Position numbers and translations under genes: made by a program
The notes under the pieces: model-generated
What the model was told of the DNA's origin: nothing
Database searches by the model: none
The model's input: the letters and a program-made list of their open reading frames with translations, nothing else
From: a virus
Length of the DNA: 41,075 nt
Direction: 5' to 3' (one strand)
Virus record (IMG/VR): IMGVR_UViG_3300037325_000185
Span: 1-41,075 of that record
Shown: positions 7,555 to 25,864 of the stretch, piece by piece
Numbering within the stretch: the first letter of the stretch is position 1
Layout of the letters: every line of letters begins with the position of its first letter

Positions 7555-7839
7555 GATTGTTGTGTTATACTTTATGCTGTATATTCTAATTGTAAAAACA
7601 TAGAAAGCAAATTTTCAAAAAAAAAATTTCTAAAAAATATTTTAGTCGAAATGTCAAGTAATATACACTATAGTAGGTTACGAAATGTGGGTGCAGGCTA
7701 ATCATTAATTATTTATTATTTTTAAAAAGGTGGTAGGGGTATCAAAAAATAAATATATTATAAAACATATTATAATATTGTACAGTTAGCACGTGTTTTG
7801 ATGGTATTAGGTGAAAGCAGGTAAGCCAGCAGGAAAGCC

Positions 7840-7881
7840 AAAAAGCACTTAACATAACCTTTGTTATGTTAAGTACTTTTT
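7840..7881. terminator. Strong bidirectional intrinsic terminator
   Basis: An almost perfect 19-bp hairpin pairs 7840-7858 with 7863-7881. It has a four-base loop and one C/A mismatch (7846/7875), and has A/T tracts on both flanks so that a U-run follows in either direction. In the minus direction it stands about 290 nt before the first structural gene, so late transcripts starting at 8.5 kb would have to read through it. Confidence 0.75.
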
Positions 7882-8087
7882 GTTTCTCTGATGGTATAGT
7901 ATATGCATAATTTGTTTATCGTGTCTCTCAGGGCTTGTTTTTGATATTCATATAGGTACTGAGTACATTGATTTGTACTTCTTTTGTATTGTTTTTTAAT
8001 AAAGTATCAGCTAAGTAGAGCCATCCTTGACTTTTTTTTAAGCAAAGTTACCAAAATTCAGAATCCAACGGAACCGTTTTTTATCAT
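7869..8087 (-). CDS. Possible small basic protein (72 aa), doubtful
   Basis: Read with TGA as Gly, the frame starts MIKNGSVGFGILVTLLKKKS and ends with TAA inside the terminator hairpin at 7840-7881, a common arrangement for a last gene. It is basic and Tyr-rich, contains two TGA codons and has one weak hydrophobic stretch. In DNA this AT-rich, with only TAA and TAG as stops, a frame of this length is expected by chance about once in such an interval. It may simply be leader RNA. Confidence 0.25.
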
Positions 8088-12018: not shown

Positions 12019-12047
12019 AGTATAGCATAGAAACAAAAGAAATGCAA
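12019..12047 (-). promoter_or_regulatory. Leftward sigma70-type promoter of the small-gene operon
   Basis: Minus strand TTGCAT (12047-12042), a 17-nt spacer, TATACT (12024-12019). Spacing is ideal and the -35 box is the TTGC(A/T)T variant seen elsewhere in the genome. The nearest 20-bp repeat begins 40 bp upstream, so a bound regulator could act on it. Confidence 0.65.
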
Positions 12048-12086
12048 AAGTTTTTTACACTTTTTTACAATATATTACACTTACCC

Positions 12087-12163
12087 CAGAGATAGCTTAG
12101 AATAGCAAATAACTCAGAGATGGCTTAGAATAGCCACTTACCCCAGAGATGGCTTAAAATAGC
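12087..12163. repeat. Three spaced 20-bp palindromic repeats (putative operators)
   Basis: CAGAGAT(A/G)GCTTA(G/A)AATAGC occurs at 12087-12106, 12115-12134 and 12144-12163, spaced 28 and 29 bp. Each contains a small dyad (copies 2 and 3: GGCT ... AGCC). Equal spacing between divergent promoters is what a phage repressor or activator would use. The first plus-strand gene (12434) is a small HTH-like protein and is the obvious candidate binder. Confidence 0.65.
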
Positions 12164-12214
12164 CAAAACATCGAAAAAATCAATTTATAGTGATTCAAGT
12201 CTCCTACATATATG

Positions 12215-12342
12215 GCTCCAAGTCTATTTTAAGGCTGCACATATTTTGACCAACTTTTCGATTTGTAAGTTTTCAAGCCTGCTGATTATATAGCTCCAAG
12301 TCTATCTTAAGGCTGCACATATTTTGACCAACTTTTCGATTT
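12215..12342. repeat. Two 50-bp direct repeats upstream of the rightward promoter
   Basis: 12215-12264 and 12293-12342 are nearly identical (one mismatch, T/C, at the 16th base), 78 bp apart. They start GCTCCAAGTCTAT and end ACTTTTCGATTT. They are too long for one operator and could be iterons of a replication origin or tandem leader elements. Confidence 0.65.
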
Positions 12343-12375
12343 TATAATAAAAAAATACTTTTTATAAACAAAATT

Positions 12376-12403
12376 TTGCTTTTATTATTATTATCAATAT
12401 AAT
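12376..12403 (+). promoter_or_regulatory. Rightward sigma70-type promoter of the replication operon
   Basis: TTGCTT (12376-12381), a 16-nt spacer, TATAAT (12398-12403). The predicted start lies about 25 nt before the ATG at 12434. The -35 box is identical to that of the promoter at 20763. Confidence 0.6.
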
Positions 12404-12433
12404 GATTGGCATATAATTATTAATCTCATAGGG

Positions 12434-12619
12434 ATGAATATCCATAAAAAGCCCCACGGAAATATTAAGATAACAGATGATTCTATTGTTTTAATGCAAC
12501 ATAAATTTCTTTTATTAAAGGATGAAACGAACGACATCAAGATAAAAAGACAAAATATTCTTGACAGTTTTTGAGTGACAGAGGGTCATTATAAAAAAAG
12601 GCTTAAAGATTTGTCGTAG
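12434..12619 (+). CDS. Small helix-turn-helix-like protein (61 aa)
   Basis: MNIHKKPHGNIKITDDSIVL begins the frame. The C-terminal half, RQNILDSFGVTEGHYKKRLK, has the helix-turn-helix spacing seen in small phage regulators and transposase N-termini, with the turn glycine coded by TGA. First gene of the rightward operon, adjacent to the repeats it may bind. DNA binding is inferred. Confidence 0.5.
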
Positions 12620-12654
12620 TTTTAGCAATATATATATTATAATATCTAGGCATT

Positions 12655-15003
12655 ATGTCACAAAATGAGATTTTCATCACCATTAATGCACTTCCTATAT
12701 TAGATGTTTTAAGTGCCTACTGAATATCTTGTCAGAAAGTTTCTTGATCTCAGTATCAGTATTTTGCTTTAAAGCCAGATGGAAAAGTTGATAGCTCATT
12801 CTCTGTACATACAGAGAAAAACATAGCAACAAACTTTGGTGGAAATTGAGAGAGTGGAAAACCTTTTGATATTATCTGAAAATTATTATGAGTGAACCCA
12901 AAAGATAAAGTTGGTACAGGTATGGCTGTCACTTTGAAATGGTTTAAAGATAAATGATTAGTAGTTGACACAGATATGAGAAAGCCGTTTGTAAAGTCAC
13001 TTAAAGATAAGGAAATACTCAAAAAATTTGAGAGCTTAAAAATGTGATGATATAATGATGCTATCTCAAAATGGTTACTTAAGAGATGAGTAAGCTATGA
13101 TGTGATATTTAAGAACCATCTTCTTTTATGAGAGGTATTTAAAGATTTTGGTATTTACGACAATTACTTTTGTACTGAGCATGAAGGGAAAGTTTCTGGT
13201 GACTCTGCAAAATCAGTTCAGGTTATACTTTTCCCATGTTATCATATAGATGATAAACTGAATAAAATACTTGTATGATTAAAGCTTAGGAGAGTTGATG
13301 GTAAGACAATCAGAGGTAAGAAATCACATGCCATAGGTCATACATGATTAATGTGGGATTATTTGTGAGACAAAACATCTTTTATAGTAGAGTGAGAATG
13401 TGACTACGTGATTATGAAACTGCTTGGGTTTAAATCAGTAATATCTAATAATGGGGGAGTATTATCCCACAGAGAAAAAATAAAAAATATATGTTATGAT
13501 ATAGATAAGGTTATTTGCTTATATGATAATGACGAGGCTTGAATAAAGTGAAAGGCTAAACTTTCAGAAGAGATGAATAGACAAATCTTTACAGTTGAGA
13601 TGCCAGTACGAAATGATTCTAAAGGAAATGCTCTATCAGACATAAATGATTACTATGTAGCGGGGTATAATCTTAAAGCAAAATGGAATAGTATTTTTAA
13701 AAATTTGGTGCCAGTTGGGATAGATATTATATGAGAGGCTCAAAAGAAAACATTGTACAGATTCTTATATTTATCTGCTCCAATAATGTATTATGACAGA
13801 GAAGAAAATAAGTGAGTAGGGAAAGAAGATATATCAACTCATACATGATACAACTCAGCTAAGATATTTGAGATGAGACAAACTGGTAAAATAGAAGAAT
13901 ACAGAGATGTTTGCTACCAATACTGATGAAGAGAGTGATATTTCAACTCTATGAATACAGATAATATGATACTTGATGCAGATGGTGAAGATCCAATAAT
14001 TCCTGAGGGTATATCAATTCTCATAAACAACTTCTGCGGATATAACCCTCAAAATATTGAGTGGATGCACCGAGCAATTCTCTACAAGATGACTCATATA
14101 AATGATTGCAGAGTTCCTGCTGTTATATCACATGGTGAGGGATGATCTGGTAAGGGGACACTCATAAAATTATTAGGAAAAATATTCTGAGCGCAAAACA
14201 CTCAACAATGATTGTGACAAAAAGATTTAGTAAGTTCGTTTGATAGTTATACAGGAGGTAAGATCATACTAGAGTTTAGAGAGATATCATCTGGTAATAC
14301 TCAAACAGATAAGATAGTACTTGATAGATTAAAATGAATAATATTTGAAGAGAGAATACATATAAACCCTAAGTTTCAGCCTGCTAGAGAAGTAGACAAC
14401 ATTGCTTGGGTGCATATGTCATCAAACCATGGAACTCCTCTGCAATTAGACAGTGCTTCAGATGGAAATCGTAGGTTTACGGTTATTGAGACTTGATGAC
14501 CTCTTACAGATAGACAATCTGAAATAATACACTCAGATATAGAAGACACAAAGAAAGTAAAACAGTATATATCTTGGCTTTTAGAGTCTTATCCTGATGT
14601 TCCTGGTCTGAGAGTTCTTCACGCTTTAGATAATGCAGATAAAAGAAGCTTGGTTGATAATTGTGAAGAGACAGGAGTATTATTTTTTCAATGGTTTGAG
14701 TCTGAATTTCCAGAAGTTTACAAAATTACCTGACCAGAGTTTAAAATACTGCTTAATTTTTATAGGAGAGTTATAACTTGAGAGAGTGATATGAATGATA
14801 GGAGATATGACATAGGAAACATTAAAAAATGATTAAATCACATATACAAATACTCTCGAATAAAGATACGTGGTAAATCTATATGGTGATATTATATAAA
14901 AAAGACTGAGTTCCAGAAAAAAATAATACCTCTTAAATCTGATGGATCATTCTCTCAGCAAGAATGGAATGAATTTTTAAGAAAAGATTGAGTACATTTC
15001 TAA
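12655..15003 (+). CDS. Primase-helicase (TOPRIM primase + SF3-type helicase)
   Basis: 782 residues. Residues ~15-90 resemble the DnaG zinc-binding domain (YFALKPDG, then SSFSVHTEKN and a Gly-rich turn), but the Cys/His ligands are absent. TOPRIM motifs follow: FIVEGECD at 243-250 and the LYDNDEAG acid motif at 289-296. The helicase part has Walker A GEGGSGKGT at 494-502 and Walker B KIILEF at 536-541, with a sensor-like HMSSNHGT near residue 590. This is the fused primase-helicase type found in phages with D5/DUF5906-like helicases. It primes and unwinds DNA at the fork. TGA codons supply the middle G of EGE (13393-13395) and the fourth position of Walker A (14143-14145), direct support for TGA as Gly. 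First large gene of the replication operon. Confidence 0.88.
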
Positions 15004-15015
15004 TAAATAAAAAGT

Positions 15016-15198
15016 ATGGTATGTATAAAAATAAGATATGTCACAAAGAAGATTGTAAGAAAGAATAAAAAGAAAATAGAATCTAAGTATTGATATAAGA
15101 CAAGTATTTACATATGTCCAAAATGTAGTTATTATCACTTAACATCTGCCTGACATGACAAGAAATCAGATATAAGACGCAGAAATATTCTTAATTAA
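15016..15198 (+). CDS. Small basic zinc-ribbon-like protein (60 aa)
   Basis: Very basic N-terminus (KKIVRKNKKKIESKYGYK) then YICPKCSYYHLTSAGHDKKS, a CPxC-x4-H-x5-H set that could bind one zinc. Such small proteins often bind nucleic acid. It starts 12 nt after the primase-helicase stop. Function unknown. Confidence 0.55.
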
Positions 15199-15204
15199 AA
15201 CATT

Positions 15205-15408
15205 ATGGAACTTGAAATAATAATAAAGAGATTAGAGTCTGCTGGAGAGGGTGAGACAAAGGAATTGTACAGAGATTTATTAAGATTAAAGACTGCAATG
15301 AGTGACGAGATTAAAGAAATACTCAAGCAATGATACAGTCTGAGTGTTTTACTAAACTCTTACAAAGAAGACAGAGATAAGATTAATTTTATTCTTAAAA
15401 ATAAATAA
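15205..15408 (+). CDS. Small helical protein (67 aa)
   Basis: MELEIIIKRLESAGEGETKE, rich in Leu, Glu and Lys, predicted all-helical with one TGA-coded Gly. Its TAA overlaps the ATG of the next gene (TAATG), so the two are translationally linked. No domain recognised. Confidence 0.6.
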
Positions 15409-15866
15409 TGAATAAACAAGAAAAGATAGACAGGATAAAAGATGTGATGGCTAATAAGGAATTGTCCTTTGGGTGTAAGGTAAAGTATTTCTATATAAAT
15501 AATGGAAATCCCGATGGAGATGAAGAGTTTTTATATATGGGATATTGGGAGGGGATGAACGGAAGACATAAGCATCACTTTCTCAGTCTTGAAGATAATA
15601 TAAAATCAGTAATAGATTTATGAGACTTGAATAAAAATTGAGAGATAATAGGACACTCTGTAATGATAGGAGATATATTAAAATATATAGATGAGAATCA
15701 TAACTGGATAAACAAAGGGTATTGAAAATCAAGAGATATGGAAAAGCATAGAGATATGATATGTACTATTTATTATATGTTTATCTGAAGATATACTGAG
15801 CCAATAGAAAAACAGAGCGAAGAGTGCATTGATTATATTCTTAACCTACTACAAATAAATGAATAA
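15408..15866 (+). CDS. Hypothetical 152-aa protein
   Basis: Starts MNKQEKIDRIKDVMANKELS. The first half is beta-rich (KVKYFYINNGNPDGDEEFLY, GYWEGMNGRHKHHFLSLED). The second half is helical with repeated Arg-Asp-Met segments. Its stop region overlaps the next small frame by ATGA. Uncharacterised; the charged His-rich middle might bind a metal. Confidence 0.65.
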
Positions 15867-15945
15867 CAAACCCCCAAGAAAACTATATAAGTGAAAATGA
15901 AATAATGGAAGCTCAAGTAGCTGGAGTTGAACACCTAAAAACTAA
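15859..15945 (+). CDS. Tiny hypothetical peptide (28 aa)
   Basis: MNNKPPRKLYKGKGNNGSSS, three TGA codons read as Gly, overlapping the end of the previous gene. Basic and disordered. Kept because of its tight coupling to its neighbours, but it could be a chance frame. Confidence 0.3.
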
Positions 15946-15948
15946 ACT

Positions 15949-16032
15949 ATGGACAAAGATCACATGAGACTACTAAAACTCCAAAGCATATATAACACAG
16001 ATAAGACTGAAGAAGAAATATGATGGATTTAG
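15949..16032 (+). CDS. Tiny hypothetical peptide (27 aa)
   Basis: MDKDHMRLLKLQSIYNTDKT, then EEEIGWI. A single amphipathic helix, starting 3 nt after the preceding stop. Evidence is only position and frame. Confidence 0.3.
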
Positions 16033-16057
16033 ATTCTAATTTAATAATTATATAATT

Positions 16058-16663
16058 ATGAGTTCAACAAATAGAAGTGACGCAAGAGATAAACATATAG
16101 CAGATTATTATGTTACTCCTCAGAAACCTATAGAGAAATTTTTAGAGGAATTTTGTGAAGACGAGAATATAAATTTATCTTCGCAAGAACATTTTATATT
16201 AGATCCCTGTGCTTGAGGAGATAAAGATACAGATATGAGCTACCCTGCTGTTTTGTTTAAGATGTGAGCTGATTATAATAAAATAATTACAAACGACATT
16301 AGGGAGGATAGTCCTGCAAGATATAACTTAGATTTTTTAAATAGAGATAACACAAATACTAATCTATACGATATAGTTATTACTAACCCTCCTTTTAATA
16401 TAGCTCAAGATATAATTGTTAGGGCATTAGAAGTTTGTAAAGAATGATGATATGTAATAATGCTTTTAAGATTAAATTATTTCTGAGGTAAGGTAAGGCA
16501 AGAGTTTTGGAAAAAAAATATGCCTATACGAGCCTATGTACACAATAGAAGAATGAGTTTTACTCCAGACGGAAAAACAGATAGTGTTGAATATATGCAC
16601 TGTGTATGGAAAAAATGAGAAAACCCTAAAGAAACTAAACTTCAATTAATATATGATTTCTAA
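16058..16663 (+). CDS. DNA adenine-N6 methyltransferase (phage type)
   Basis: 201 residues. The start has DYYVTPQKPIEKF, a common N-terminal signature of phage adenine methyltransferases. AdoMet motif I is ILDPCAGG at 47-54 (first Gly of the GG pair coded by TGA), and the catalytic motif IV is NPPF near residue 108. Length fits a stand-alone small methylase without target-recognition additions. It probably methylates phage DNA against host restriction. No matching nuclease is nearby. Confidence 0.8.
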
Positions 16664-16777
16664 ACAAATGCTCATAAAGAAATAAAAAAGATAATTGTTT
16701 AATTAAAAGTAGCTCATTATCTACAATTAAGATATATAAGCATATAATACCAATTAATTTATAACTAACCTGTGAAT
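16664..16777 (+). other. 114-bp AT-rich gap, possible weak promoter
   Basis: No gene. TTGTTT, 17 nt, TATCTA around 16697-16725 could be a weak promoter for the following block of small genes. A short imperfect inverted repeat surrounds it. Nothing firmer can be said. Confidence 0.25.
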
Positions 16778-16924
16778 ATGAAAGCAAAAATAATACAAAT
16801 ATCTACTACAGATATAGTTGAATGACCATGCCAAATGCACACAATAACTGCATTATGTGAGGATGGGAGTGTATGGAAAAGATGTGATATTGGAGATTGG
16901 GAAGAAATACCACTTAATAAATAA
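16778..16924 (+). CDS. Small hypothetical protein (48 aa)
   Basis: MKAKIIQISTTDIVEGPCQM, then HTITALCEDGSVWKRCDIGD. Looks like a small beta-sheet protein of the type 'ITALCEDGSVW', frequent among phage accessory proteins. One TGA codon as Gly before P-C-Q. Function unknown. Confidence 0.55.
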
Positions 16925-16935
16925 CATATACTAAT

Positions 16936-17358
16936 ATGAAAAACCAAGAAAAGATAGAAAATATAGAAGCTGCCATTAAGAAGTTACAGGAACAGGTTGA
17001 GGAATTAAAAGAAGAGAAAATAGATTTCTCTAAGTTTGTGGGGAAAGATGGGAGAACATTAGCAATAAAATGAGATAGATATTTATTATCATATTCTAAT
17101 TGAGATATTGGACAAAGTACGGTATATTCTTTTTATAAAGAAACCCCAGACTACATCCACACTACAGTAAGTGAACTAGAGAAATGAGATGTGTTTATAA
17201 CTGAGGAAGAAGTTGAACTTGGTATGGATATAAGCAGTTTTAATATATATGTAGCTAATTGATGGGCACAATATTTATTAGATATTGGAGAAGTTGAAAT
17301 TATAGAAAACAGTTACTCCCATTTAGATACTGAAGTTATTAAATTTTTAAGGAACTAA
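16936..17358 (+). CDS. Coiled-coil hypothetical protein (140 aa)
   Basis: N-terminal ~30 residues form a coiled coil (IEAAIKKLQEQVEELKEEK). The rest is beta-rich with FVGKDGRTLAIKGDRYLLSY, and four further TGA codons read as Gly. Followed after 1 nt by the next ATG. Unrecognised; oligomerisation through the coiled coil is likely. Confidence 0.6.
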
Positions 17359-17359
17359 T

Positions 17360-17542
17360 ATGAAAACAGTAAAAGAATTACAGCAGGAATTACCATACAC
17401 AGTACCACAAGAGAATGAGTTAAAACAAGCTTATGTAGACTGATACGAAACAGCTATAACGTGAATTTTAGAAGATATAGAAAGCTCAATGGCAATTTCA
17501 GTAGAAGGTATAGAGAAATATTTATCAGACTTATTAAAATAA
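17360..17542 (+). CDS. Small helical protein (60 aa)
   Basis: MKTVKELQQELPYTVPQENE and then AYVDGYETAITGILEDIESS. Acidic, helical, two TGA codons as Gly. It begins 1 nt after the preceding stop and shares the MKT start context with the gene that follows. Function unknown. Confidence 0.55.
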
Positions 17543-17548
17543 ACAATT

Positions 17549-17923
17549 ATGAAAACAATAGATAAATTAAGAGAAATATTATGTACAGTAGATGTAGTGA
17601 GAAAACAAATTTCATATAATACCACAATAGGAAGTTTTTGATGAGATTCTATTATTAAATTTTGATGAGATTCTTTTATTAAATTTTGATGAGATTCTAT
17701 TATTAAATATAGAGATATACAAGAACGCCATCTCAGACTCTATTGTGAGGAAAAGTGATGGGCTTTTGCAATAGGGAGTACAGGAAAATTAATTTGAAAT
17801 AGAAATAAAGCAGGGAGTTATTGTGAAATGCAACTAGACAACACAAAGGACTTCGAGCAACAATCAGAAGAAACACTATTAGCAATTTATAATTTTTTAT
17901 TAGAAGACAAATGAGCAAAATAA
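17549..17923 (+). CDS. Hypothetical 124-aa protein with FGGDS(I/F)IK repeats
   Basis: After MKTIDKLREILCTVDVVRKQ the protein contains three tandem octapeptides of the type F-G-G-D-S-I-I-K (17636-17707); the first Gly-Gly pair in each is TGA TGA. The C-terminal half (LRLYCEEKWWAFAIGSTGKL and on) is globular, with W-W and Cys residues. The repeat resembles short tandem units that form beta-solenoid turns or lengthen by slippage. The stop overlaps the next ATG. Function unknown. Confidence 0.6.
17636..17707 (+). repeat. Three tandem 24-bp repeats inside a coding region
   Basis: Units at 17636-17659, 17660-17683 and 17684-17707 are TTTTGATGAGATTCT followed by (A/T)TTATTAAA. They differ at one position only, so the expansion looks recent. 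The TGA TGA pair makes this stretch unreadable in the standard code. Confidence 0.85.
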
Positions 17924-18045
17924 CAATTAGCATAATAATACTGTTTTTTGTATTTACAATTTCAGTAATAAAGACGGGAATTTTAGATTGCAGACACGTA
18001 TATGCAGATAAAACAGAATGATGCAATATAACTAATAAAAAATAA
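17911..18045 (+). CDS. Small membrane-anchored or secreted protein (44 aa)
   Basis: MSKITISIIILFFVFTISVI is a clear N-terminal hydrophobic helix, followed by a short polar part with two Cys (ILDCRHVYADKTEGCNITNK). Start ATG overlaps the previous stop in another frame. Could be a small exported peptide with a disulphide. Confidence 0.5.
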
Positions 18046-18048
18046 TAT

Positions 18049-18261
18049 ATGACAGAACAAATAGGAGAGACAACACATAACTGACTAGAAGAAATGAGAA
18101 AGGCAGAAGCAATAGAAAAGGCTATACAAGAGACTAAGGGAAGTTTCTGGACTATACTAAGGTCTATGAGATTATCAGCTACTAGTGACAAGCAAATAGT
18201 GGAAAGACTAGGTAAGTTTGCACTTGATGTTGATATTGATCTTGAGAGACTGGAGAAATAA
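18049..18261 (+). CDS. Small helical protein (70 aa)
   Basis: MTEQIGETTHNGLEEMRKAE, then a basic middle (FWTILRSMRLSATSDKQIVE) and an acidic end. Predicted all-helical. Begins 3 nt after the preceding stop. Function unknown. Confidence 0.55.
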
Positions 18262-18383
18262 TAAAACCTCGCACAATGTAATATCTAAGGAGTTTTCGTT
18301 ACAAGAAAATTTTTTCTAACTTGGGTATCTTGTTAATCCATCTCGAGTAAAAGGTGGTCTTCTACTAATTAAAGAATAAAAAA
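18262..18383 (+). other. 122-bp gap with a repeated 16-mer
   Basis: No gene found. It contains CCATCTCGAGTAAAAG (starts near 18337), which recurs exactly at the 3' end of the 18602-19078 gene (near 19046). It may be a remnant of a duplicated gene end or a binding site. Confidence 0.35.
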
Positions 18384-18563
18384 ATGCTAACACTAATCGA
18401 ATTAATTATTACATTTATAGCAATGATATTTATATTATTACTTCCCTTAGCTTGGATTACTCATGTTATATTTTGCTTAGGTACAGGAGCTTGGGGATTT
18501 TTAGTCGCTGGAGCAATATTCTTTCCAATAGGAATAATACATTGATTTATAATCTGGTTTTAA
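18384..18563 (+). CDS. Small two-helix membrane protein (59 aa)
   Basis: MLTLIELIITFIAMIFILLL forms a first membrane helix, then a short loop and a second hydrophobic segment (GAWGFLVAGAIFFPIGIIHG). Almost no charge. Could be a holin-like or envelope-modifying protein, but its place in the early operon argues against the main holin. Confidence 0.55.
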
Positions 18564-18566
18564 AAT

Positions 18567-18623
18567 ATGCTCAAATACCTTATAGATAATAACCTAATAA
18601 AATGAGACAAACATTATACATAG
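18567..18623 (+). CDS. Tiny frame (18 aa) between coupled genes
   Basis: MLKYLIDNNLIKGDKHYT, starting 3 nt after the preceding stop and overlapping the next start. Possibly a coupling peptide that carries ribosomes to the 18602 start; could equally be chance. Confidence 0.25.
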
Positions 18624-19078
18624 ACGAACTTGATAACGAAGATTACCAGAAATATTTAGACAAGCTAGATTCCTTAAATTATGACGATCCTCTTGATATT
18701 ATAATAAATACTGATTGAGGGCAGGATTATTTAAGAGAAATATTAGTAAAAAGGATTAGAAAATTTAAAGTCTATAACATAGAAGCATACTCTGCTTTTA
18801 GTAATTGAACATATTTAATTGATGTACTCTATAAAGAGGCTAATAGTGTAGATATATGTCTACAGGGTCAATATATGTTTCATATAGGAGCATTTACTGT
18901 AAATATATGAGATTGATGAACATCAAGATGACAATATCAGAAATACAAAAGAGACATTCAAGAAACTATTATTCCTTATATGTATTCTATATTTAATAAA
19001 AAAGAAAGGAATAGTTACTTAAACTGAGAAGATGTTTATATAATGCCATCTCGAGTAAAAGCTTACTACTGAAAATAA
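18602..19078 (+). CDS. ClpP/S14-like protein, possibly a divergent peptidase
   Basis: 158 residues. DPLDIIINTDGGQDYLREIL matches the 'I-x-I-N-S-x-G-G' loop of ClpP/SppA-type serine peptidases. It is followed by EAYSAFSNGTYLIDVL, where Ser would be the nucleophile in an 'A-x-S' context, and MFHIGAF, where His would be the second residue. A charged helical end follows. It is shorter than ClpP (~200 residues) and sits in the early operon, away from the capsid genes, so it is unlikely to be the prohead protease. Fold assignment is moderate, activity uncertain. Confidence 0.45.
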
Positions 19079-19081
19079 ACC

Positions 19082-20308
19082 ATGCTAAAACTGAGAGAAT
19101 ATCAAGAGACTATATCAACAAATGCTTCAATTCTACTTCAGGAACACTGAGTAGTTATGATAGCTATGCAGGTAAGGACATGAAAAACATTTACAGCTCT
19201 GGAGACTATCAGGAAGTTTTGATCTAAGAATGTTCTCTTTTTAACAAAGAAGAAAGCTATATCATCAATAGAGGATGATTATGCACATTACCAAGATTTC
19301 TTTGATATGACGACTATAAACTATGAATCTATTCACAAGGTAGAGTGAATATTTGATATAATCGTACTGGATGAATCTCATACTCTATGAACTTTTCCAA
19401 AACCTAGTAACAAAACTAAGATAGTAAAGAGACTATATGGGAAACTCCCTATGGTCTTATTATCATGAACTCCAAGTCCAGAGTCTTACAGTCAGTTGTT
19501 CCATCAGTTTCACATTAAGCAGAGTAATATTTGGGCAAAGTATACTAATTTCTATTCTTGGTGTAGGGCAGGATATGTTAAAATAAAGCAGATTAGAACT
19601 TCATACGGATTCTCTAACTGTTATAAGTCAGCAAGCTACGACATGATAATGGCAGATGTAGGACATCTTATACTTACTTATACTCAGCAGGAGGCATGAT
19701 TTACTACTAAGGTAAATGAGACGATTCTAAGGGTACCTATGAGAGATATTACATATCGCTTAGTTAAGCGACTTAAAACAGATAAGGTAATAGAATCCTG
19801 AGATAAGGTAATACTTGCTGATACTATGGTAAAAGAAAAACAGAAGATACACCAACTTTATAGCTGAACGATTAAGTTTGAAAACTGAGAGACTATGGTT
19901 TTGGATAAATCTAAAGGGCTGTTTATAAAGGAAAGATTCAAGGATCAGAAAATAGCTATCTTCTATATATTTAAAGCAGAAAAAGAACTTCTAAAGACCG
20001 TATTTGGGGATAAAATAACTGACAATTTAGACGAGTTTAATAGTACAGATAAGAATATCATGCTACAAGTAGTCTCAGGTCGTGAATGAATAAGTCTCAA
20101 GGCAGCTGATAGTTTAGTGTTTTTTAATATAGCGTTCTCTGCCCTCAGTTACTGGCAAGCAAGAGATAGACTCTCTACTATGGATAGACTAGAGAATGAT
20201 GTCTACTGGATATTCTCAGAGTGATGATTAGAATGAGATATATACGAGGCTGTACAGAATAAGAAAGATTTTACTACTAAAATGTATAGAAAGAATGTGA
20301 ATAAATAG
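19082..20308 (+). CDS. SF2 DEAD/SNF2-like DNA helicase
   Basis: 408 residues. Q-motif-like start (LREYQETI), Walker A MQVRTGKT at 29-36, Walker B as VLDESH at 95-100, motif III LLSGTPSP at 126-133. Near the C-terminus, LQVVSGREGISLKAADSLVF and WQARDRLS form motifs V and VI. The layout matches compact phage helicases of the SNF2/RecG-like superfamily that follow a replication primase. It probably remodels replication or recombination forks. Directly followed by a VRR-NUC nuclease, a common pair in phages. Several Gly come from TGA. Confidence 0.85.
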
Positions 20309-20314
20309 TAATCA

Positions 20315-20620
20315 ATGCTAGAATCATTTCACCAGAATAAGATCACGAAGTTTTTAGAGAGTAGGAGCTTCTTTGTTACAAAACTTATAAGAACTAATAG
20401 AAATGGGGTACCTGACCTAATAGCCACGAAAGGAACATTTACTGTATGGATAGAAGTAAAGAAGCCCTGAGGTGAAGTATCAAAACTTCAGAGTTATACT
20501 CATAGGCAACTTAGGAAAAACTGATGAATAGTAATAATTCCTTACTGATACGATGACTTTCTGAAACTGTTTCAAAGTAGCATATTACCGAATATACCAC
20601 AAGACAAGGTGGAAGACTAA
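20315..20620 (+). CDS. VRR-NUC domain nuclease
   Basis: 101 residues. NRNGVPDLIATKG, then VWIEVKKPGGEVSKLQSYTH and a Q/R-L segment followed by GGIVIIPYGYDDF, are the standard VRR-NUC motifs: the G-x-P-D loop, the catalytic E-V-K and the Q-x-x-x helix. The family contains stand-alone structure-specific or Holliday-junction-type nucleases. The Gly after K-K-P and both Gly of K-N-G-G come from TGA. It follows the SF2 helicase by 6 nt. Confidence 0.85.
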
Positions 20621-20756
20621 AGCTATTTTATTGCCAAGAATATTAAATGAGAAATACTTCTTTAATAGATCAGATAAGTTATATATAAAATGAGAAAATT
20701 TTAATGGGAAAGACATAAAATACATAAAAATGAACAAAAGTATAAAAAAGTGATAA
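20553..20756 (+). CDS. Small basic protein overlapping the nuclease gene (67 aa)
   Basis: ATG at 20553 lies inside the 3' end of the nuclease frame. The protein MTFGNCFKVAYYRIYHKTRW continues with KTKAILLPRILNEKYFFNRS and ends ...KKG with TGA TAA. Basic, probably a small beta fold. The overlap suggests translational coupling. It is only visible with TGA as Gly. Function unknown. Confidence 0.5.
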
Positions 20757-20762
20757 TAAGTG

Positions 20763-20791
20763 TTGCTTTTTTTATATAAAAAGAGTATAAT
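20763..20791 (+). promoter_or_regulatory. Strong sigma70-type promoter of the SSB-like gene
   Basis: TTGCTT (20763-20768), exactly 17 nt, TATAAT (20786-20791). It starts 7 nt after the preceding stop. Its position shows that the ATGs at 20772 and 20790 lie in or before the transcript start, so translation should begin at 20839. Confidence 0.8.
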
Positions 20792-20838
20792 GGTTTTAGA
20801 AGTTAATACTTCTTCTTATTTTTTAACTTATAGAAATA

Positions 20839-21476
20839 TGAGTGAGTTTGGTACACCAGTGAGTTCGGATAATGCAACATACTTTTCTATAGGAGGAGGT
20901 AACATAGTCCTTCCAGCAGAAGACGAAGCAGAAGGAGCTAAGTTACGAACATGGGACAGACCAGATGGAACACAAGGTTCTAAATGGGAATACAGAGAAA
21001 AAGATGTTACTGGTATGATTACGGGGCTTGATTTTATAGAAGGTAAGTATGGAGATAATCTTTCTATAAGTATTACAAATTCTAATATGGATTTAGCTAA
21101 GTTACAATTATCAGTAGAGTCTGATTACTTTAAATCATTTGCTAGCGTTCTTAAGAATATTCTTCTTACAGAAGAAGTAGTATTTAATGCTTATGACTTT
21201 ACAGCAGAGGATGGGAAAAGAAGAAGGGGGCTTTCATTGAAACAAGATGGTAAGAAAGTACAATCTTTTTATTATGACGCTGATAAAAAAGTATCTATGA
21301 ATGGTATGCCGTCAGTTGACAAGAAGACAGCTAAAGACTATGACAAAGATGATTGGAAAGTATTCTATATGAGCGTTAAGAAATTTCTCAAGAAAGAAGT
21401 TAAGTCAGTAGAGATTCCAGACTTTGGATTAGGCAAAGCATTATCGGTTGATGCAGTAGAGGACATATTTTCATAA
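20839..21476 (+). CDS. Single-stranded DNA-binding-like protein
   Basis: 212 residues from MSEFGTPVSSDNATYFSIGG. Central part (EYREKDVTGMITGLDFIEGK, then SISITNSNMDLAKLQLSVES) looks like an OB-type beta barrel, and the C-terminus SVDAVEDIFS is acidic with a terminal hydrophobic pair, like SSB tails that recruit partners. Similar uncharacterised proteins accompany exonucleases in many phages. An annealing protein is the alternative. All 17 glycines use GGN; none is TGA, unlike the neighbours. It has its own promoter, consistent with very high expression. Start chosen because the promoter's -10 box covers the upstream ATG. Confidence 0.65.
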
Positions 21477-21493
21477 GATAACGCATTTTAAAA

Positions 21494-21601
21494 ATGACTA
21501 ATACTTGAATAGATGAAAATGGATTTTATCCATTAGATACAAACCAGCCTTTATGATATGATAATACAGAACTATTATGAGAAGATATTACAAAAACTTA
21601 G
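21494..21601 (+). CDS. Tiny hypothetical protein (35 aa)
   Basis: MTNTGIDENGFYPLDTNQPL, then GYDNTELLGEDITKT, with three TGA codons as Gly. Acidic. Overlaps the exonuclease start by 25 bp in another frame. Small, but its Gly-TGA usage matches real genes here. Confidence 0.4.
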
Positions 21602-22449
21602 AGCAAAGAAGTCCAGAGTGGTTTAAGGTAAGAGCTTGAGTTGCATCATGAACTATGATGAAACAGCTCACCTCATCATGAGCTACTCTGAAAGGGTGTC
21701 AGTATAAGGTTCTAGCAGGAAAGCATATAGATGACTGATACCTATCTAAAGATATAGAATTTAAGGATACGTTCTTAGAACAAAAGATTCGTAATGGTAT
21801 AGAATTATCAGCGAAAGACGCAGCAAATCGAGGTATTGAGTTAGAACTATACGCTACAAGACAATATGAAATAGAGACTAAAAACAAAGTCACTGAGATG
21901 TGATTCGTAAAACTTGATAATTATATAGGGTGTTCACCAGATGGGCTTGTAAAGAAATGAAATAAATACATATGAGCTATAGAGATTAAGAGTTTGCTTG
22001 GTCAGAATTACCTGAAGCTTCTAAATGATTGATTTATGAAGTCAGATCATAAGCCACAGATTATTAATTACTTTATATGTATTCCTTCAATAGAATGGAT
22101 TGATTGTATCTCGTTTCATCCAGGAGCTTCTCTTAAGATAGGGGGCTTCCACATAGAAAGGATACTCAGGGTTGATATACTCGATGATATAATTAAGCAA
22201 TCAGAAAAAATATCTATATACAAGAAAACTTTGGATTCCTTAGAGGAGGACTTACTCTCTAAAATACAAGAAAAAAAGATGGTTAATATATGAGAAGACA
22301 CTCCGTACAGCGTAAAACAGGCGGCAATGTTTATGTGAGTATCTGACCAGACAATTAGAGCATGGTGTAAGTCTTGAAAACTTCAGTATTCCAAGGATTC
22401 ATCCTACAAGATCATAGGATTAAATATTTTAAAATTAATATATAAATAG
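21577..22449 (+). CDS. YqaJ/lambda-type exonuclease with C-terminal helix-turn-helix
   Basis: 290 residues. The PD-(D/E)XK exonuclease motifs are in order: QRSPEWFKVRAGVASGT (10-26), NRGIELE (84-90, the E in the R-G-x-E motif), CSPDGL (119-124) and IEIKS (135-139). The family digests double-stranded ends to give 3' overhangs for annealing or recombination. After residue ~235 a separate domain, YSVKQAAMFMGVSDQTIRAW followed by CKSGKLQYS, is a MerR/excisionase-type DNA-binding HTH. Such an end is unusual for lambda exonuclease homologues. About 11 of 22 Gly codons are TGA. It is followed immediately (overlap TAGATG) by another small HTH protein. Partner is probably the SSB-like protein upstream. 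Confidence 0.82.
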
Positions 22450-22632
22450 ATGAACATTGAAAATCATCTAACTTATACTATAGACGACTTAGTCATAATA
22501 CTAAAGTTAGGGAAGAGAACATTACAAAAAAAGATAACAAGATGAGACATTAAGGCTAAAAATGTTGGCACTAATATTAGGGCAGTATATAGAGTCTTAT
22601 GAAAAGATATTTTAGATTACTTAAACAAATAA
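22450..22632 (+). CDS. Small excisionase-like DNA-binding protein (60 aa)
   Basis: MNIENHLTYTIDDLVIILKL continues with GKRTLQKKITRGDIKAKNVG and RVLGKDILDYLNK, the layout of helix-turn-helix 'HTH_17/excisionase' proteins (turn in the first third, basic wing, closing helix). Start overlaps the previous stop by one base. The HTH at the end of the exonuclease has a similar layout, so the two may bind the same site. Confidence 0.6.
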
Positions 22633-22635
22633 ATT

Positions 22636-22701
22636 ATGTTTATTATAGTATTATTTTTAGCAGTTATTATTATAACCCTTCTATTATTTTATGAAGAATA
22701 A
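22636..22701 (+). CDS. Tiny membrane peptide (21 aa)
   Basis: MFIIVLFLAVIIITLLLFYE is a single hydrophobic helix. It lies 3 nt after the preceding stop. Short, but composition is not random for this DNA. Confidence 0.35.
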   Translation: MFIIVLFLAVIIITLLLFYEE

Positions 22702-22749
22702 TGGTATAAAAATAATCAAGATTATATTTTAAACATTAATTAAGCTATC

Positions 22750-22917
22750 GTGCAAATTTTCTATATATTACTAGGACATATTTTTCTTTACGCAGTAGGT
22801 TTATTTCTTGTTATACAGAACAATACAAAATGAAGTGAGAGAAGTTTATACGAGAAAATTGTTACAATATACGCCATTACTATCCTTATATTATCTATAT
22901 ATGGAGCAATATATTAA
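22750..22917 (+). CDS. Small two-helix membrane protein (55 aa, GTG start)
   Basis: Two membrane segments (IFYILLGHIFLYAVGLFLVI and IVTIYAITILILSIYGAIY) joined by a basic loop. No ATG fits, so the GTG at 22750 is taken. Resembles class II holins in topology. Because the lysozyme lies 0.7 kb downstream on the same strand, a lysis role is possible. Confidence 0.5.
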
Positions 22918-22935
22918 TAAATTAAATAACCTATT

Positions 22936-23241
22936 ATGAAGATATTTATTGGGGATTATGAACTAGAAAAAGATAGAAATGGGTACATACTTACAATATA
23001 TGGTATATCAAATAAAGGAATAAACGAATGATCTAGGGTACAAAAAGACCAAGTATACCCAAGCTCACTTATTGCTGCTATACAATACATAAGACAAAAG
23101 AAGCTTGATAGAGAACTTAATGTTAGCCTGTGAGAAGCATTAGAAGAAATAGAAAGAATAGATAAGCAATTTATAACAGAGCTTACAGAAGCTTTTAGAG
23201 GTATTAATATGGATGAGTTTTTAGATACTAAAACTAAATAA
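22936..23241 (+). CDS. Hypothetical 101-aa protein
   Basis: MKIFIGDYELEKDRNGYILT, a beta-rich first third, then a helical, acidic remainder. Two TGA codons as Gly. Similar small proteins (beta hairpin followed by SLIAAIQYI-like helix) occur in phages without known function. Its TAA shares bases with the ATG at 23241 in the next frame. Confidence 0.6.
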
Positions 23242-23285
23242 TGATTTTCTTTAAACAACCACTTTATAAAAATAAATATAAAAAC

Positions 23286-23606
23286 ATGAAAAAAACAATA
23301 CTATTATCAGTAATACTTATTCTTACAATTATAGGATATACAGTACATGCAACTAATGAGAGAGAAAAGACTGAGGAACTTAAACAAAAACTAGAGGTAG
23401 CATTACAGCCTACACCATTTGAAGAACTACAAATAGAGCTTGCTCATAATAGAACTCAGAGAGCTGAAATGGAAAAGCAAAAAGAATCTATTTATCTTGA
23501 AGCAAGAGGTAAAATGGATGCAATAGAAGATAGAAAACAAGTACTATGAGAGAGAGCTGATGATATTAAAAATGAGATGGAGAATATCTTGGGTTTAGAT
23601 TGGTAG
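23286..23606 (+). CDS. Exported coiled-coil protein (106 aa)
   Basis: MKKTILLSVILILTIIGYTV is a textbook signal peptide, probably cleaved after VHA. The mature part is a long charged coiled coil (EELKQKLEVALQP and AEMEKQKESIYLEARGK). Start chosen at 23286 because the upstream ATG at 23241 would add a 15-residue basic tail before the signal. It lies just before the lysozyme gene, overlapping it by 7 bp, so a lysis accessory role such as a spanin is likely but not shown. Confidence 0.6.
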
Positions 23607-24109
23607 AAGAAACTACTAAAAATCACATTGTATATAATACAGAGGAAAGTATACAATGAGAAGCTGTATTGCATAAAAAGGAGGAAGTATTATACAAAGA
23701 AATAACTATAGAGTTTGATATACTTTGAGATAATAAACATAAAGCATTATATGCTTATGGTTATGCAAGAGATAAATGACTTACTTATGACCAGTGATTA
23801 AGATTAGTTGCTCAGATACATAGAGAGAATGGAACTTGGAATGAAACTAGGAGATGAGATGCAGGGTGTTCTGTATGACTTACACAATGGAACGAGTGTG
23901 CAAGATGACCTGTACCACATAAAGATTGGGAAGGACAGATCAGAATACTTATAGATGCAGTATATCTAGATTATATAAAGCTATGAGACTTTATTCAGGC
24001 ACAAGTAGCTTGGAACTCTCCTAAAGTAAGAACTGGAGAATGGAATTATACAAAGACTAAATATTTCGGTCATATAACAGATACTTATTCAATACTTTTT
24101 AATAAATAA
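23600..24109 (+). CDS. Lysozyme / lytic transglycosylase-like endolysin
   Basis: 169 residues. VAQIHRENGTWN with Glu76 as candidate catalytic residue, followed by GDAGCSVGLTQWN (86-98), matches the lysozyme/SLT fold ('E-S/N-G ... G-D-x-G-x-S-x-G-L-x-Q-W'). Gly86 and Gly93 are TGA-coded. No ATG exists in frame after the upstream TAA; the TTG at 23600, overlapping the stop of the exported coiled-coil gene, is taken as start. No signal peptide. It should cleave peptidoglycan during release. Confidence 0.75.
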
Positions 24110-24111
24110 AT

Positions 24112-24666
24112 ATGATAATTGAACACGAAATAAAACGAGAAGGAAAAAAGCTTTCTTGACCTATTACAAATGTAATATTTGCAGAGTGAGAAGAGAGAGG
24201 GGATAGTAAAGAATGCTATTCAAAAGATAGGAAGTTTTATATGGAAAGTTGTAACTCTCCCGAATTATTAGATGGGCATATATATGTGTTGTGAAGTGAC
24301 GAAGCACAAGATACTCGTACAGTGGAATATACTTACAATACAGAAGAAGAAGCTATACAAGCTCTTGCATATATAAATGAATTTACAAAACAAGAGGATG
24401 AGTATGTAAGGGGAGAAGTGGTAGAGGTGACAGATGGGGGAGGTGACGATTGGAAAAAAAGAATATACTTATCTACTATTGAATGAACAAAACTTCCCTA
24501 TATTGTGGTTTCTTTGTATGATGAAGATGAGTATAATAATTGAGAAAAGTTTTCCACTATATCTTATAAAAAAATAAGAAAACTATCTACTATTACAATG
24601 ACTTACAACTGACAAGAGGTGGAAGTTAAAAAAGAGGTAGCAAAAGAATTATGATTTAAAATATAG
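24112..24666 (+). CDS. Hypothetical 184-aa protein, last rightward gene
   Basis: MIIEHEIKREGKKLSGPITN opens an acidic, beta-rich protein with repeated Tyr and Glu. A central DGGGDDW turn is encoded mainly with GGN, and six TGA codons supply other Gly. It ends just before the first of three short promoter-terminator units. No family recognised. Confidence 0.6.
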
Positions 24667-24679
24667 AGTTGATATTTTT

Positions 24680-24707
24680 TTGCATTTTATAAGTAAATAA
24701 GCATAAT
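24680..24707 (+). promoter_or_regulatory. Promoter of short RNA 1
   Basis: TTGCAT (24680-24685), 16 nt, CATAAT (24702-24707). The -10 box lies inside a 7-bp palindrome with a 3-base loop (24700-24716: AGCATAA ... TTATGCT), which could be an operator. Confidence 0.5.
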
Positions 24708-24713
24708 TGTTAT

Positions 24714-24826
24714 GCTCCAAAATAATTTAATATTACTCAGAGTAAAAATAATGGATGGTATAAATTGGTTCTTCCCTACCAAGAGTTTATATCCTAATAG
24801 AACAGATTAAGTCTGTTTTTTTTTTT
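24714..24826 (+). ncRNA. Putative short phage RNA 1 (~113 nt)
   Basis: Bounded by the promoter at 24680 and the terminator at 24801. A small internal hairpin (TTGG ... CCAA around 24764-24781) is possible. No translation start with a meaningful frame. Existence is inferred from signals alone. Confidence 0.4.
24801..24826 (+). terminator. Intrinsic terminator of RNA 1
   Basis: AACAGA, five-base loop, TCTGTT, then a run of eleven T (24816-24826). It may also end the preceding operon. Confidence 0.75.
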
Positions 24827-24852
24827 GCATTTAAAACAATTACTTATATACT
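24825..24852 (+). promoter_or_regulatory. Promoter of short RNA 2
   Basis: TTGCAT (24825-24830), 16 nt, TATACT (24847-24852). Starts within the T-tract of the preceding terminator. Confidence 0.5.
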
Positions 24853-24858
24853 AGGTTT

Positions 24859-24915
24859 CTCAGCACTTTGTCCGTAATGAGATAAAAAAAACTAGATTCG
24901 TTCTAGTTTTTTTTT
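24859..24915 (+). ncRNA. Putative short phage RNA 2 (~55 nt)
   Basis: Predicted start ~7 nt after the -10 box, ending at the terminator 24884-24915. About half its length is the terminator stem, leaving ~25 nt of free 5' sequence, a size typical of antisense or decoy RNAs. Confidence 0.42.
24884..24915 (+). terminator. Intrinsic terminator of RNA 2
   Basis: A-rich left arm ending ACTAGA, loop TTCGT, right arm TCTAGT followed by nine more T. Strong. Confidence 0.8.
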
Positions 24916-24941
24916 GCATTAAATTATTGTCTACGTATAAT
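24914..24941 (+). promoter_or_regulatory. Promoter of short RNA 3
   Basis: TTGCAT (24914-24919), 16 nt, TATAAT (24936-24941), the best of the three. Again fused to the preceding T-tract. Confidence 0.55.
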
Positions 24942-24947
24942 AAAAAC

Positions 24948-24997
24948 GTGTTGATCCCATTGCAAAGTAAAACCCCAAGCGTTAACTTGGGGTTTTA
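24948..24997 (+). ncRNA. Putative short phage RNA 3 (~50 nt)
   Basis: From ~24948 to the hairpin at 24968-24997; about 20 nt of single-stranded 5' end (CGTGTTGATCCCATTGCA) before the stem. Signals only. Confidence 0.42.
24968..24997. terminator. Bidirectional intrinsic terminator
   Basis: Twelve base pairs (TAAAACCCCAAG with CTTGGGGTTTTA), loop of six. It ends RNA 3 on the plus strand and, on the minus strand, the late operon whose last stop is at 25008. Confidence 0.85.
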
Positions 24998-25007
24998 TGA
25001 TTATTTA

Positions 25008-25184
25008 TTACAAGTACATAGAGAGTACTCTATCTAAGTCTCATAGAGTAGTATCTTTGACTTTCTGTACATCTTCTGGAAGAGAATTGACACGAGCTAG
25101 TATTCTTGCTCACTCAGGGAGTAAATCTTCTCTTTCTCCATCATATATAACTCCTTTCTGATTATTTCTTTCGTATATTAGCAT
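25008..25184 (-). CDS. Small acidic protein (58 aa), end of late block
   Basis: MLIYERNNQKGVIYDGERED followed by LLPEGARILARVNSLPEDVQ. Starts within the last codons of the methyltransferase gene (overlap 7 bp). Two TGA codons as Gly. No domain recognised. Confidence 0.6.
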
Positions 25185-25864
25185 ATTCTTTCTTTAGCAA
25201 TATTAAAATAAGTTTCATTTAGTTCAATACCTATAAATTCTCTGCCTAAATTTTTACAAGCAACTCCTGTAGTTCAGCTTCACATAAACGGATCAAATAC
25301 TACTCCTCATGGAGGACAACTATTTCTTATAGTTTTTTCTATAAATTCTAATGGCTTGATAGTAGGGTGATTCCATAATTTTTTATCTTTATGATTTATA
25401 AGTCATAAATATACTGTTTTAGCATCATCGTAGTTTTGAGGCTTATTATATGCTCAAGCTTTTTTAAAATAGAGACAATACTCGTTATCCGTAAGATATT
25501 TATTATTATAACTTGGTATAGCATTTTTTTTATTCCAAATAAGAATATCGAATAAGCAATTTCTTTTTATAACAAAATAATCCATGTACATAGGGATTTG
25601 TTTTTTATTACACCATATGTATATATTTGTTTTGTCTTGCAACTTCTCAGCTTTTTTTATAAATGAATAAAAATCATATCCATTATCTAGCCCTGCATTA
25701 GCAACTTGGATAGTAGAGTTTTTAAATTTTTTTATTGTGTTTATACTTCAACCTCAATTTTTGACACTTACATCGTATGGTGGATCTATTTGTATTAAAT
25801 CCACTTTTACATCTTGAGCAATTAGCCTATCCATTTCTTCCAAGCAGTCTCAGTTTATTAACAT
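25178..25864 (-). CDS. DNA N4-cytosine/N6-adenine methyltransferase
   Basis: 228 residues. Catalytic motif IV QIDPPYDV is near residue 29 and AdoMet motif I, VFDPFMGSGTTGVA, near residue 200, i.e. the beta-class order with a KPLEFIEKTI segment in front. Two of the invariant glycines of motif I are TGA codons (25280-25282 and 25274-25276), the clearest single proof of the recoding. It probably protects phage DNA; no companion endonuclease is present. Placed at the end of the late block. Confidence 0.88.

Follow-up and report, generated by a model that had tools for sequence, protein, structure and literature searches.

The window analysed here, IMG/VR record IMGVR_UViG_3300037325_000185, is a complete-looking phage genome of 41,075 nt with a 127-bp direct terminal repeat, whose genes are read in genetic code 25. 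The early genes, among them those for primase, helicase and exonuclease, lie on the plus strand (~12,190-24,666), while terminase, portal, tail and lysis genes occupy the minus strand in a block that terminates at 25,011; the labels early and late are assigned from gene content. The two converging operons are separated by a locus of 344 bp (24667-25010), in which we predict a series of promoters, short RNAs and terminators (Table 1). The cumulative GC skew of the genome peaks at this locus and has its minimum at the region where the early and late operons diverge (12078-12335).

Table 1 Predicted features of the locus and neighbouring genes.
Feature	Position	Strand	Description
Terminator T0	24658-24681	+	weak A-U stem and T7; T-tract runs into the P1 -35 box
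Promoter P1	24680-24707	+	TTGCAT-N16-CATAAT; -10 at 24702-24707; predicted start ~24714
RNA1	24714-24826	+	~110 nt; hairpin at 24753-24795
Terminator T1	24801-24826	+	AACAGA-TTAAG-TCTGTT (24801-24817) and T11; short stem; plus strand only
Promoter P2	24825-24852	+	TTGCAT-N16-TATACT; -10 at 24847-24852; predicted start ~24859
RNA2	24859-24915	+	~57 nt; 25-nt 5' part CTCAGCACTTTGTCCGTAATGAGAT, then terminator
RNA4	24882-24930	-	~49 nt; stops at minus face of T2; fold z -5.86
Terminator T2	24884-24915	both	AAAAAAAACTAGA-TTCGT-TCTAGTTTTTTTT, perfectly symmetrical; T9; bidirectional on paper
Promoter P3	24914-24941	+	TTGCAT-N16-TATAAT; -10 at 24936-24941; predicted start ~24948
Promoter P4	24937-24965	-	TTGCAA (24965-24960)-N17-TATTAT (24942-24937); predicted start ~24930
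RNA3	24948-24998	+	~51 nt; 19-nt 5' part GTGTTGATCCCATTGCAAA, then terminator
Terminator T3	24967-24998	both	GC-rich; bidirectional on paper; would end RNA3 (+) and the late operon (-)
Last early-operon gene	24112-24666	+	184 aa; no family
Last late-operon gene	25011-25185	-	57 aa; no family
DNA methylase (N6_N4_Mtase)	25178-25864	-	228 aa

On the plus strand of the locus, T7GCATT occurs three times and every TTGCAT lies 16 nt from its -10 element, reproducing what a sequence-only reading of the window had described. The terminator reported after each unit was likewise recovered, T3 with a tail (TTTTATGATTATT) weaker than the T-tracts of T1 and T2, and in two units the -35 box indeed starts within the T-tract of the preceding terminator (P2 in T1, P3 in T2). 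Absent from that account was the minus-strand promoter P4, which begins directly past the minus face of T3. The -10 elements of P3 and P4 overlap (TATAATA), and their predicted, unmapped starts are 18 bp apart, which is the geometry of a bidirectional promoter. A perfect palindrome, AGCATAATTGTTATGCT (24700-24716), spans the -10 element and start of P1; copies of this potential operator are no commoner elsewhere in the genome than expected by chance. T0 is possibly the end of the early operon, and its fold (24640-24682) is not significant (-5.7 kcal/mol, z -1.85). As read from the sequence, this promoter and terminator anatomy is predicted with high confidence.

The signals are clearly non-random. 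The exact form TTGCAT-N16-[CT]ATA[AC]T, found three times in the region, occurred at least twice in none of 2000 dinucleotide shuffles and once in at most 6 of them. Under a strict definition (TTGCAW, a spacer of 16-18 nt and a -10 element with at least five of six matches to TATAAT), the 41-kb genome contains six promoters, four of them at the locus, compared with a mean of 2.1 and a maximum of 6 in shuffled genomes; none of 1000 shuffles of the region held two or more. The genome-wide count is modestly high, and it is the clustering that is extreme. Of the nine terminators in the genome scoring at least 14, five fall within the locus, three on the plus and two on the minus strand. A generic scan for sigma-70 promoters plus terminators over 20 kb did not distinguish the locus from shuffles; the signal therefore depends on the TTGCAW form.

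To place this form, we turned to 28 GTDB genomes of code-25 hosts (L085-L153), selected by the RpoC motif NADFDGDQMAVH with one glycine encoded as TGA, which serve as a sample of the host clade. TTTTTTGCAW-N15-18-TATAAT was found 97 times in these genomes and once with a reversed control. TTGCAW-N16-18-TATAAT gave 591 matches against 26 for the control, and the corresponding TTGACA form 326 against 37 (totals added by hand from tables). TTTT precedes TTGCAW at ~97 of the 591 promoter-like sites, in comparison to 11 of 395 background sites. By eye, most of the retrieved host examples lie 20-60 nt ahead of an ATG, and in L087, L117/L139 and L149 the T-tract ahead of the -35 box belongs to a terminator, apparently upstream of ordinary protein genes. 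The sequence repeated across the three phage units is limited to the T-tract/-35 element. Because of the 97 matches against one and the terminator fusions in the hosts, this repeat is the promoter that the host clade normally uses and not a mobile unit. The proposal of a special repeated cassette with variable cargo is thereby not supported; its mystery disappears with the host-type identity, which at the same time strengthens the phage promoters. The related claim that the -35 form matches the other promoters of the genome was borne out in part: hundreds of such promoters exist in the hosts, but in this genome strict promoters outside the locus number just two, at 12047 and 27568, both on the minus strand. 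The former (12047-12019), at the divergence point, reads TTTTGCAT-N17-TATACT in the same host-type form and is likely the main late promoter.

RNA2 and RNA3 (z -4.15 and -3.97) fold better than all 200 of 200 shuffles, and scanning them yielded no usable open reading frame (ORF). RNA4 would be complementary to RNA2 across the T2 hairpin. RNA1 contains a 19-codon ORF, MDGINWFFPTKSLYPNRTD (24751-24810), in a start context typical for this phage, so the assertion that the transcripts have no coding capacity, valid for RNA2 and RNA3, was too strong.

We moderately favour the reading that the locus groups three small-RNA (sRNA) genes of a code-25 phage on the plus strand with, probably, a fourth on the minus strand. 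Promoters, terminators, their spacing, their non-randomness and the host-type promoter form are all features of the sequence as we read it; we infer that the RNAs are produced and that they act through pairing of their 5' parts. Host RNA polymerase would start at P1, P2 and P3, and at P4 on the opposite strand from the -10 element in common with P3. Transcription from the plus-strand promoters would stop at T1, T2 and T3, and that from P4 at the minus face of T2, yielding RNA1 to RNA4. The units are packed head to tail, each terminator T-tract doubling as the first bases of the following -35 box. The RNAs would probably be made early or throughout infection, because the promoters match the strong type of the hosts and no phage factor is evident. 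The short stretch at their 5' end, 19-25 nt long in RNA2 and RNA3, may pair with host or phage RNAs. Hfq was found in 0 of the 28 genomes from the host clade, in a search whose positive controls worked. These RNAs do not fit the pattern of Hfq-dependent sRNAs, and since the hosts are without Hfq, pairing would be Hfq-independent. Each predicted gene has, as sRNA genes do, its own host-type promoter and an intrinsic terminator close downstream. Every transcript would run straight into a stable hairpin, and a similar lone unit occurs in host L124 and a comparable one in phage L066, both in favour of the sRNA reading. A more specific version, in which a phage of code-25 Patescibacteria has a dedicated array that with host-type promoters and shared bases gives each RNA a different 5' guide and redirects several host RNAs at once in Hfq-less hosts, is only tentatively put forward.

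Several observations weigh against this reading. Expression is predicted from sequence, the P1 -10 element CATAAT is off-consensus, RNA1 as a whole folds no better than shuffles (z -1.25), and its ORF has an ATG in the A-rich context, free of a Shine-Dalgarno motif, that is typical for this phage. Prediction of pairing partners and of antisense matches to phage genes returned none above shuffles. In addition, IMG/VR offered no close relative from which conservation or covariation could be assessed. Of the earlier proposal of regulatory or decoy RNAs of a code-25 phage, the consecutive plus-strand units at the operon convergence are supported; a regulatory or decoy function is conjectural, the searches having returned neither a significant phage partner nor an RNA family nor a cargo homologue.

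The main rival is a transcription insulator, in which two-way terminators split the operons, promoters fire against read-through and the short RNAs are by-products. The locus lies exactly between the operons and holds five of the nine good terminators of the genome, T2 and T3 are two-way on paper, the GC skew peaks here and every transcript is short. Promoters would be unnecessary for this task, however: the plus-strand ones restart transcription toward the late operon right after each stop, and P4 points away from it. Convergent operon junctions usually need just one two-way terminator. We consider an insulator possible, although unlikely. Less probable still is that RNA1 is a mini-mRNA for the 19-aa peptide, with its stop codon in the terminator loop and RNA2 and RNA3 secondary. 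The start context described above would suit it, but the frame enters the terminator stem, a chance frame of 19 codons in 110 nt is expected fairly often (unquantified), and nothing similar is encoded by RNA2 or RNA3. That the boxes arose by chance in the A/T-rich sequence separating the operons, for which the composition of the stretch and the generic scan might speak, is very improbable given that two such boxes never arose in shuffles and that their form is the real promoter of the host clade. RNA anti-CRISPRs (Racr-like) mimicking host CRISPR repeats, suggested by the predominance of type V-A systems in code-25 hosts (PMC10746230), are also very improbable, as the Cas12a-type repeat hairpin (TCTAC-N3-6-GTAGA) is nowhere in the window and the 28 host genomes gave no convincing cargo match.

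Searches for families and relatives were largely negative. No Rfam family matched above its gathering score, no tRNA was found, the array had no blastn match among 50,697 phages, and homologues of the RNA cargo were found neither in phages nor in the 28 hosts. The last early gene, the exonuclease, the tail chaperone and the capsid-region protein led to no relatives, in protein-to-DNA searches whose patterns could miss TGA-coded glycines and possibly did not cover the records closest to the window. Terminase relatives are 39-56% identical and none has the array; a methylase relative, L004 (77%), has no comparable downstream region. A tandem-unit pattern matched four stretches in IMG/VR. Two of them (L083 by raw sequence, L154 by ORF listing) apparently lie within coding sequence and the others (L082, L084) have a single promoter-RNA-terminator unit each, so all four were rejected as tandem arrays. 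L082 and L084, which are related phage records, show between genes a terminator-fused TTGCAA promoter, an ~80-nt RNA and a terminator. In L066 (1307-1500), a code-25 terminase relative, a promoter and an ~126-nt RNA are followed by a terminator-promoter fusion, the promoter belonging to a 109-aa gene; this unit, comparable to the locus but not homologous, could be a leader or an sRNA. The tandem-unit pattern had one, spurious-looking match in the 28 hosts. The minus-strand unit of host L124 (~1500-1620), with a lone promoter, an ~65-nt RNA and a terminator, is a candidate host small RNA.

Elsewhere in the genome, a Shine-Dalgarno-like motif precedes none of 35 genes checked, A/T-rich sequence being found ahead of the starts instead. 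Repeats of two kinds occur in the divergence region (12078-12335): three of ~29 bp (12078-12166) and two of 78 bp that are 83% alike (12180-12335). With the GC-skew minimum also located there, the region may be a replication origin or a regulator-binding array. Inside the late genes, a long hairpin (7839-7882) flanked by T/A tracts on both strands is predicted to be a strong two-way terminator.

For Absconditabacteria/Gracilibacteria and the phages that infect them, little is known of transcription and small RNAs. The sRNA cluster, a well-founded prediction, offers mappable start sites, a clade promoter form (T-tract plus TTGCAW, 16-18 nt, TATAAT; 28 genomes) and a compact locus for phage sRNAs in a Hfq-less host. 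A limited literature search turned up no paper describing this promoter form, and the words 'tandem' and 'array' are both absent from a review of phage sRNAs (PMC12197685). That review tabulates trans-acting phage sRNAs of about 50-90 nt, such as lambda PreS and VP882 VpdS, which the RNAs of the locus resemble in being short phage RNAs; the difference lies in the code-25 hosts, which are without Hfq. Lambda OOP RNA (PMC12197685) is also a short, promoter-driven phage RNA, but is antisense to cII, whereas no gene lies opposite RNA1-3; the overlap of RNA3 is confined to the late-operon terminator and that of RNA4 to RNA2 and P3. RNA anti-CRISPRs (PMC10651486) share with the locus a short phage RNA directly after a promoter, but the RNAs of the locus do not resemble a CRISPR repeat. 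For bacterial bidirectional promoters, an 18-bp start separation is given as the commonest geometry in PMC10268837, which cites Warman et al. 2021. P3/P4 resemble the promoters described there in their near-symmetrical common -10 element and predicted start separation, and differ in having a -35 box both ways and a terminator within about 50 nt each way. Similar in construction are the Gracilibacteria/SR1 fusions (L087, L117/L139, L149), where a terminator T-tract likewise starts a TTGCAW -35 box; the host fusions are single and apparently stand before protein genes, whereas at the phage locus two or three follow one another, each before a short RNA.
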